Position numbers and translations under genes: made by a program. Of a DNA stretch of 64,000 nt, positions 58,031 to 59,792 are shown one piece after another. The notes under the pieces were generated by a model. The model saw only the letters and a program-made list of their open reading frames with translations, was not told where the DNA came from and did no database searches. Within the stretch, counting starts at the first letter, position 1; each line of letters starts with the position of its first letter. Source of the stretch: Candidatus Dactylopiibacterium carminicum (lineage in GTDB: Bacteria; Pseudomonadota; Gammaproteobacteria; Burkholderiales; Rhodocyclaceae); assembly GCF_014736495.1 (NCBI RefSeq), contig NZ_MDUX01000008.1, positions 1 through 64,000 on the forward strand. Direction: 5' to 3'.

Positions 58031-59792
58031 ATGGCAAATATCTCCCGCCGCGCCTACGCGAAAATGTTCGGGCCCACGGTCGGCGACCGCGTGCGTCTGG
58101 CTGACACGGACCTCGTGGTCGAGGGTCGAGCGCGATTTCACTCTCTACGGTGAAGAGGTCAAGTTCGGTGGCGGCAAGGTCATCCGCGACGGCATGGGCC
58201 AGAGCCAGCTGCCGGCCGCCGACGTCGCCGACACGGTGATCACCAATGCGCTGATCATCGACCACTGGGGCATCGTGAAGGCCGACATCGGCATCAAGGG
58301 TGGCTACATTTCCGGTATCGGCAAGGCCGGCAATCCGGACGTGCAGCCGGGCGTGACGATTTTCATTGGCGCGGCCACCGAGGTCATTGCGGGCGAGGGC
58401 ATGATCATCACCGCCGGCGGCATCGACACCCACATCCACTTCATCTGCCCGCAGCAGATCGAAGATGCGCTCATGAGCGGCGTGACCACCATGATCGGTG
58501 GCGGCACGGGTCCAGCCACGGGCACCTATGCCACCACCTGCACGCCAGGCCCCTGGCACATCGCGCGCATGCTGCAGGCGGCCGACGCCTTCCCGATGAA
58601 TTTGGGCTTTCTCGGCAAGGGTAACGTGAGCCTGCCTGGACCTCTGCGGGAACAGGTCGAAGCCGGTGCCATCGGCCTCAAGCTGCATGAAGACTGGGGC
58701 ACCACGCCGCAGGCCATCGATACCTGTCTGGCCGTGGCCGAGGAGCTGGACGTGCAGGTCGCCATCCACTCCGACACGCTCAACGAATCCGGTTTCGTCG
58801 AAGACACCGCAGCCGCTTTCAAGGGCCGCACCATCCACACCTTCCACATCGAAGGCGCGGGTGGCGGCCATGCGCCGGACATCGTCAAGCTCGCCGGCAT
58901 GAAGAACGTGCTGCCCAGCTCGACCAATCCGACGCGCCCCTACACCGTCAACACCATCGACGAACACCTCGACATGCTGATGGTCTGCCACCACCTGGAC
59001 CCGGCCATCGCCGAGGACATCGCTTTCGCCGAATCGCGCATCCGCCGCGAGACCATCGCCGCCGAGGACATCCTGCACGACGTCGGCGCGCTGTCGATGT
59101 TCTCCTCCGACTCGCAGGCCATGGGCCGCGTGGGCGAGGTGATCATCCGCACCTGGCAGACCGCGCACAAGATGAAGCAGCAAAGAGGCTGGCTCGCCCC
59201 CCTCACCCCCAACCCCTCTCCCGCGAGGGGCGAGGGGAGCGTCGTGTCGCCTGCCGTGCAGACGAATCAGAGGAACGACAACTTCCGCGCCAAGCGCTAC
59301 ATCGCCAAGTACACCATCAACCCGGCGATCGCCCATGGCATCGGCCACGTGGTCGGCTCCGTGGAAGTCGGCAAGTTCGCCGACCTGGTGGTCTGGCGCC
59401 CGGCTTTCTTCGGCGTGAAACCCACCACCATCATCAAGGGTGGCATGATCGCCGCCGCGGCGATGGGCGATGCGAATGCCTCGATCCCCACGCCGCAGCC
59501 GGTGCACTACCGGCCGATGTTCGGCAGCTTCGGCGGCGGTCTGAAGACCTCGCTCACCTTCGTGTCGCAAGCTGCACTGGACAAGGGCACGCTGACCGGC
59601 CTCGGCCTGCAGAAGCCGCTGGTGGCGGTGAAGAACATCCGTGGCGTGACCAAGGCGGACATGATCCATAACGACTGGTGCGGCGAGATCAAGGTCGACC
59701 CGGAAACCTACGAGGTGCGCGCCGACGGCGAACTGCTGACCTGCGAGCCGGCAACCAGCCTGCCGATGGCACAGCGCTACTTCCTGTTCTGA
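58031..59792 (+). pseudogene. ureC: Urease alpha subunit UreC: frameshift plus in-frame repeat insertion
   Basis: The catalytic subunit. It starts [20 protein letters not shown]; after about 30 codons one extra G near 58122-58124 shifts the frame, ending the early product at a TGA near 58152. In the correct frame all active-site residues are present: [20 protein letters not shown] (carbamylated Lys and His), [36 protein letters not shown] (flap His) and [10 protein letters not shown]. About 20 extra residues, including [13 protein letters not shown], sit between KMKQQRG and [13 protein letters not shown]; they are encoded by a CTCTCCC-family repeat. Undone, the frameshift would restore a roughly 586-residue protein (normal is about 567). 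Confidence 0.92.
59197..59239. repeat. CTCTCCC-family repeat inserted in frame inside ureC
   Basis: CCCCTCTCCCGCGAGGGGCG, preceded by CCCCCTCACCCCCAA and followed by AGGGGAG, is the same palindromic repeat family as at 33429, 33950 and 38683-39030. It is translated as [12 protein letters not shown] within UreC. Confidence 0.9.

Follow-up and report, generated by a model that had tools for sequence, protein, structure and literature searches.

A palindromic repeat within a putatively replaced loop of the urease alpha subunit of Candidatus Dactylopiibacterium carminicum

Palindromic sequences that lie in frame within bacterial genes are already known, from the Rickettsia palindromic elements (RPE) and from the GTAG/CGTC REPs. 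RPE are described in passages of Delihas (2007, PMC2229807) as elements of 105-146 bp that occur between genes and also, in frame, within conserved ones, and a guanylate kinase that bears one of them is reported there to be active. The intragenic GTAG/CGTC REPs, according to parts of Di Nocera et al. (2013, PMC3733652), are palindromes of 20-40 bp that are mostly intergenic, with some copies in conserved genes, including those of Thauera; in recB of two Xanthomonas species such REPs lie at about the same site. A third group, the NEMIS, ERIC/RU-1 and YPAL MITEs, is given in passages of Delihas (2007, PMC2229807) a length of about 100-200 bp, and several of its members are said to have terminal inverted repeats and to duplicate their target.

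Here we describe a repeat found in a stretch of 64,000 nucleotides of Candidatus Dactylopiibacterium carminicum (the window), where a palindrome of the CTCTCCC family is read in frame within ureC. The repeat resembles RPE in being a short palindrome situated in frame in conserved genes and, apparently for the most part, outside genes, in being open in several reading frames, and in that its in-frame copies are absent from the orthologues of relatives. It differs from them in sequence, in host and in length, with a core of 41 bp against the 105-146 bp given in the passages cited, and in that one enzyme loop here holds unrelated repeat families in many genera. With the GTAG/CGTC REPs it shares the character of a short multi-copy palindrome with some copies in conserved genes, but no consistent GTAG or CGTC was seen by eye at its ends when the flanks of 15 genomic sites were set in register. 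The MITEs, in the passages that treat them, are likewise small repeats that do not move autonomously, contain open frames and occur as fusions with genes, whereas neither terminal inverted repeats nor target duplication could be made out for the host repeat.

The words 'urease', 'CTCTCCC' and 'CCCTC' are absent from the main text of PMC3733652. No report of repeats in UreC was found in the literature searched, outside which most subscription papers lie, and the literature matches listed for peptide and DNA words came only through the short word CCCTCTCCC. What is new is a family devoid of the end tag, with four in-frame copies in one genome; new as well, judging from the comparisons below, would be an enzyme loop that is occupied in many lineages by one or other of two unrelated repeat families, together with the apparent exchange of that loop apart from its gene. 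The case bears on how palindromic repeats become coding sequence in conserved enzyme genes of Betaproteobacteria, and the UreC loop offers a single protein site, with filled and empty states, at which the process is traceable across many genera.

The UreC loop and its gene

The main open frame of ureC, the gene of the urease alpha subunit, occupies positions 58194..59792 on the plus strand and matches the family models PRK13207.1 (938.6 bits, profile positions 56-569 of 569) and TIGR01792 (842.7 bits, against a cut-off of 680). Between KMKQQRG and NDNFR it encodes 28 residues (codons 333-360 of this frame), which make up an 84-nt loop at 59190..59273 on the plus strand. In the alignment of relatives this loop stands where a loop of 8 residues is typical of the genus and present in 7 of 7 congeners (G001-G007), with a net gain of 60 nt. 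The initial annotation of this DNA had described about 28 residues in the place of about 8, within positions 59150-59300, and both the lengths and the interval agree with these values. Among 30 UreC loci, drawn from the 31 genomes with a match out of 61 searched, the loop measures 8-12 residues in 28, and only the host (28) and G008 (29) have longer ones.

The same annotation assigned the loop DNA to the in-frame CTCTCCC-family palindrome, and this assignment holds for the 41 bp at 59200..59240 (plus strand), identified both by a strict pattern, which has four other matches in the window, and by loop scoring. This core is read as 14 residues and consists of the palindrome with an extra upstream half, CCCTCACCCCCAACCCCTCTCCCGCGAGGGGCGAGGGGAGC. 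Scored against the repeat consensus (repeat A), the host loop reaches 38.8, and none of 10,972 control windows from the same genes exceeds 11.6, a comparison that is partly circular for this loop, since the consensus was written after seeing it. The repeat does not extend over the entire loop. Neither the WLAP at its start nor the VSPAVQ... at its end belongs to it, and the other copies in the genome share the core only. The non-repeat 3' end, 11 residues at 59241..59273 (plus strand), is common to the UreC loops of G120 (L061), G201 (L058) and G008 (L111), and the residues flanking the loop, KQQRG and FRAKRY, are of the host-genus type.

In the solved alpha chain 8hcn_C the loop aligns to residues 387-394. 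From urease structures we take it to be a surface loop situated away from the nickel site; an AlphaFold2 model of UreC, built on an alignment of 23 sequences, had a mean pLDDT of 41.9 and was too poor for use.

Comparison of the ureC body with that of four congeners and of G019, taken as its five close relatives, yields dN/dS values of 0.061-0.092, against 0.066-0.103 among those relatives. By these ratios the gene body stayed under purifying selection and the UreC protein under normal constraint, which speaks only indirectly for a protein that is made and active. The N-terminal part of ureC lies in another frame, with an ATG at 58031 and a one-base frameshift near 58122-58125 (58031-58194, 31 residues), and the start of the gene is continuous, with no frameshift, in four relatives (L002 and L004-L006). 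In ureE, an in-frame TAG at 60440-60442 stands where L002, L003, L004 and L006 have a glutamate codon. The frameshift and the stop may reflect either recent decay of the operon or assembly errors.

The gap before ureC (57958-58020) is filled by a different inverted repeat, GTAGGGTGCGC...GCGCACCCTAC, copies related to which occur at 19948, 43953 and 55313. In G007, the DNA ahead of ureC gives, by eye, a translation similar to that of this repeat region.

The repeat family and its other in-frame copies

Across the host genome the strict pattern was matched 15 times forward and 8 times in reverse, and a reversed-pattern control has 0 and 0. Five of the 15 strict sites fall within the window, namely the one in ureC and those at 33443, 33964, 38683 and 38890. 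The match at 33443-33465 has an inverted partner at 33495-33525, the repeat copies there spanning 33429..33525; that at 33964-33986 lies in a copy at 33950..34024; and the region 38679..38981 holds two strict copies, 38683-38705 and 38890-38912, of a subtype that is followed by TGGCCCGCAGGGCC. In the frames that were scanned, none of these four copies fell within a recognised domain. Over the genome, 11 of the 15 strict sites of this short multi-copy palindrome are outside any recognised domain, as judged from a scan of ten of the frames that cover them.

As to a link between the repeat and RAYT transposases, genomes with and without the repeat show no contrast: PF01797, the RAYT transposase domain, occurs in 17 of 20 genomes, G004, G007 and G435 have it together with 0 strict copies, and G201 has repeat copies without it.

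Three further strict sites of the 15 lie within the conserved genes cobD, tex and pepN, each in frame. The tex copy is in a gene with Tex_YqgF (PF16921) and neighbouring domains, and the pepN copy in a gene that matches TIGR02414 with 1191.6 bits. The cobD copy belongs to a fragment of 216 residues at a contig end, the best family of which, TIGR01140, scores 135.2 bits, below its cut-off of 290.55. The insert is missing from the relatives in all three cases (8 of 8 for cobD, 20 of 20 for tex and 8 of 8 for pepN), the relatives coming from a search of 26 genomes in which part of the matches were fetched and the cobD locus L345 was unreadable. Net gains over G001 amount to 12 residues in tex, 22 in pepN and 34 in cobD. 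The cores are read as NPSPARGEG in ureC and IPSPSEGRG in pepN, which share a frame, and as APLPQGARG in tex and LPLSPEGRG in cobD, in the two other frames, so that the copies in tex, pepN and cobD use three reading frames between them.

Apart from the events at the UreC loop, the family would have entered cobD, tex and pepN in frame in the host lineage, an outcome we regard as fairly probable when it is judged jointly with the replacement of the UreC loop proposed below. The wider claim of the initial annotation, that such elements add peptide to genes, finds support in these three copies and their absence from the relatives read. Together with the copy in ureC, they suggest that such repeats are able to add length to proteins that still function. 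Its proposal to look for a target-site duplication led to none that could be made out by eye on the codons; at tex, pepN and cobD the junctions were too diverged from those of the relatives to define one. In Pseudothauera rhizosphaerae (G224), 0 of 15 sites lie inside a Pfam domain (15 of about 65 sites, 20 frames, with the ureC copy outside the sample), and in-gene copies are therefore not the rule elsewhere.

Conflicting histories of loop and gene

The body of the host ureC and its loop point to different relatives. In a tree computed without the loop, host UreC groups with the congeners L004, L005 and L006 and with G019 (L003) at a support of 95; the congeners G002 and G006 fall just outside this group, and G003 is placed elsewhere in the trees. 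The near relative G019 has a loop of 8 residues. Constraining host UreC (L001) to group with L061 alone or with L058 alone was rejected (p-AU 0.0002 and 0.0032, respectively), these two being the best matches of the host loop and the constraint groups having been named after the tree was seen. Joint constraint of L001 with L057, L058 and L061 gave a p-AU of 6e-13, a less specific result in that the latter three need not be one clade. The loop end, by contrast with the gene body, matches other genera: over the 36 nt of the tail from AGC onwards, G120 scores 25, G201 21 and G008 16.5, where the highest of 19,385 control windows has 15.5, with G224 (L057), the fourth Rhodocyclaceae loop that bears the palindrome, staying below that maximum at 14. 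The loop thus has non-repeat ends in common with other genera, whereas the body of the gene is placed with short-loop UreC of the host genus and of one near relative, and for this reason the 84 nt most likely came in as a small cassette in which the repeat was already present.

The explanation we prefer, and consider probable rather than certain, is that the host loop gave way to a WLAP loop with the repeat already in it, the insertions into cobD, tex and pepN being separate events. This departs from the initial annotation, which had the repeat simply inserted into ureC; the native loop of 8 residues has been replaced, and the ends of the present one are non-repeat sequence common to the UreC of other genera. 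The loop that follows KMKxQRG would be a tolerated and highly variable site, for which Betaproteobacteria appear to have an 8-residue form and longer forms, many of them starting with WLAP and several built in part of multi-copy genome repeats. In the host lineage the native 8-residue loop would have been swapped for a WLAP loop with the CTCTCCC-family repeat inside, most likely through a very short recombination tract between the conserved flanking codons, and the presumed donor is ureC DNA of another Rhodocyclaceae genus. The neutrality of the added peptide and the repeat's way of moving are points we infer.

A donor with the whole loop was not found, the nearest, G120, differing in the repeat part and being 26 residues longer. 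Identity in windows of 90 nt revealed no broad foreign tract outside the loop, and a long recombination tract around it was rejected on these grounds, save for a slight foreign lean in the window at 58940, well upstream of the loop, where other genera are 88-90% identical and most congeners 80-89%. On the simplest reading, only the loop would have been replaced, in a tract of about 100 nt. Such a tract is very short for homologous recombination, and this counts against the explanation; short-patch double illegitimate recombination is a possible route.

Direct transposition of the repeat into the host's own ureC loop, with the rest of the loop arising around it, seems unlikely to us. The family is resident in the genome, with its 15 strict sites, and its in-frame copies in three other conserved genes, absent from the relatives read, speak for such an event, but the WLAP start and the VSPAVQ tail, both outside the repeat, are common to other genera, and the native loop is gone. 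Against it also stands the core variant found in ureC, CCCTCTCCCGCGAGGGG, which is missing from the other 14 strict sites of the host genome and is the commonest variant among the places listed for Pseudothauera G224.

We give less credence still to a composite element, a mobile unit larger than the 41-bp core that brings along a second hairpin, the shared tail, the loops of other genera then being separate insertions at the same site. The tails in ureC do form small hairpins with covarying arms (TCGCCTGC.GCAGGCGA, TCCTGC.GCAGGA), and a hairpin is seen by eye downstream of the cobD and C72 copies too. Stems of at least 5 are present in 16 of 44 stretches downstream of copies, against 7 of 43 and 8 of 44 controls and 9% in shuffles, an excess that is nevertheless small and due in part to the ureC loops themselves. 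The tail, GTGTCGCCTGC..GCAG, was moreover not found beside the other repeat copies of the host genome, which speaks against this reading.

An ancestral origin of the long loop and its repeat in the genus, followed by loss in the other members, is improbable, for with 8 residues in 7 of 7 congeners and in G019 it entails several separate losses to similar short loops, even though the scanned set contains long WLAP loops in wide distribution. The initial annotation had held that the same extra loop, if found in distant relatives without repeat-like DNA, would be ancestral. Long WLAP loops without the repeat are indeed common, and the long loop type is thus independent of the repeat; the repeat inside the host loop is nonetheless real. 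An assembly artefact, suggested by the draft state of the genome (122 contigs) and by the frameshift and stop nearby in the operon, is hardly credible for a loop that is in frame and within one contig and that has similar repeat-bearing counterparts in other genomes.

Loops and repeats in other genera

A loop-centred family search of 395 genomes gave a match in 85. Among the 30 loci listed, the palindrome is in the loop in five (the host, G224, G201, G120 and G008), while 11 have a WLAP loop without it, 3 have other long loops and 11 have loops of 8 residues. The 11 WLAP loops without the palindrome comprise 9 of genus g72 together with those of G155 and G122, and the loci named Thauera group with g72 in the trees. 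Scanning 84,980 species genomes for MKxQRGWLAP yielded at least 117 stretches (116 of the listed 117 parsed), and the matches listed belong mostly to Burkholderiales, other Betaproteobacteria or unplaced Proteobacteria.

The 175 parsed loci contain 165 distinct loops, a set mostly picked for length, so that its fractions are not population frequencies. Repeat A was accepted in 15 of these and repeat B in 8, and all 23 outscore every one of the 10,972 same-gene control windows; a 16th match to repeat A, the weak and GC-rich one of L172, was dropped, and L097, with no loop parsed, was left out. Repeat A is reversed in L128 and L179 and forward in the remaining loops, where its copies are in different frames. 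Repeat B, of the CTTCGACAGGCTCAGC type and read as VRAEPVEAL, is a multi-copy repeat unrelated to A.

On a UreC tree of 149 rows, repeat A takes 11 changes for 14 rows, repeat B 6 for 8, and the distinction between short and long loops 13, counts which on this unrooted tree, with 53 of 146 inner branches below a support of 80, cannot separate gain from loss. The tree omits nine copy rows (L123 as partial), 13 rows of fewer than 380 residues, and L002, which duplicates L084 and was included in another UreC tree. Genomes with a repeat in the loop also tend to be rich in that repeat. In hand-picked genomes, with kinship ignored and L129 left out, 13 genomes with A in the loop have more copies of it than 16 others (one-sided Mann-Whitney p 0.0012), and six with B have more than 17 others (one-sided Mann-Whitney p 0.00095). 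Copies of A were counted forward (in G120, which has none forward, in reverse) and those of B on both strands, and the ureC copy was subtracted where the pattern fits it. This excess supports, without proving, a local origin of the loop repeats.

Of 101 genomes in the genus to which G419 (Variovorax boronicumulans) belongs, 95 gave a match; 30 loops were read, of which one has repeat A (28 residues), 18 have 8 residues and 11 others have 16-21. Loops of all lengths are set between flanks that are 86-94% identical to those of G419.

We tentatively propose, as a possibility somewhat short of an even chance, that the loop between QRG and NDNFR acts as an exchange site, where tracts of about 100 nt encoding repeat peptides move between the ureC genes of different genera and lineages rebuild the loop from their own repeats, with unrelated selfish repeats converging on it. 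The loop also offers a natural assay, both for the foreign peptide accepted by an enzyme and for the shortest tract exchangeable between genera. A word of caution also applies, as differences in UreC loop length do not follow descent.

Several further observations concern individual loops. Hairpins of differing sequence, with paired arms, lie 3' of the core in L031/L221, L295 (by eye), L216, L219, L057, L058, L105 and L114. The loop of L061 (G120), of 54 residues, is the longest repeat-bearing loop seen in Rhodocyclaceae and has, by eye, an apparent second insertion inside the palindrome. A peptide resembling the VRAEPVEAL of repeat B is present in the UreC loops of L115, L116, L129, L103, L108, L156, L091 and L176. 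Many plain 17-residue loops of Comamonadaceae (GRTEPAEALQR etc.) resemble a worn repeat B and score below the control threshold. Two UreC sequences from records titled Leptolyngbyaceae, L147 and L167, have a WLAP loop and occupy a long branch of their own in the tree.
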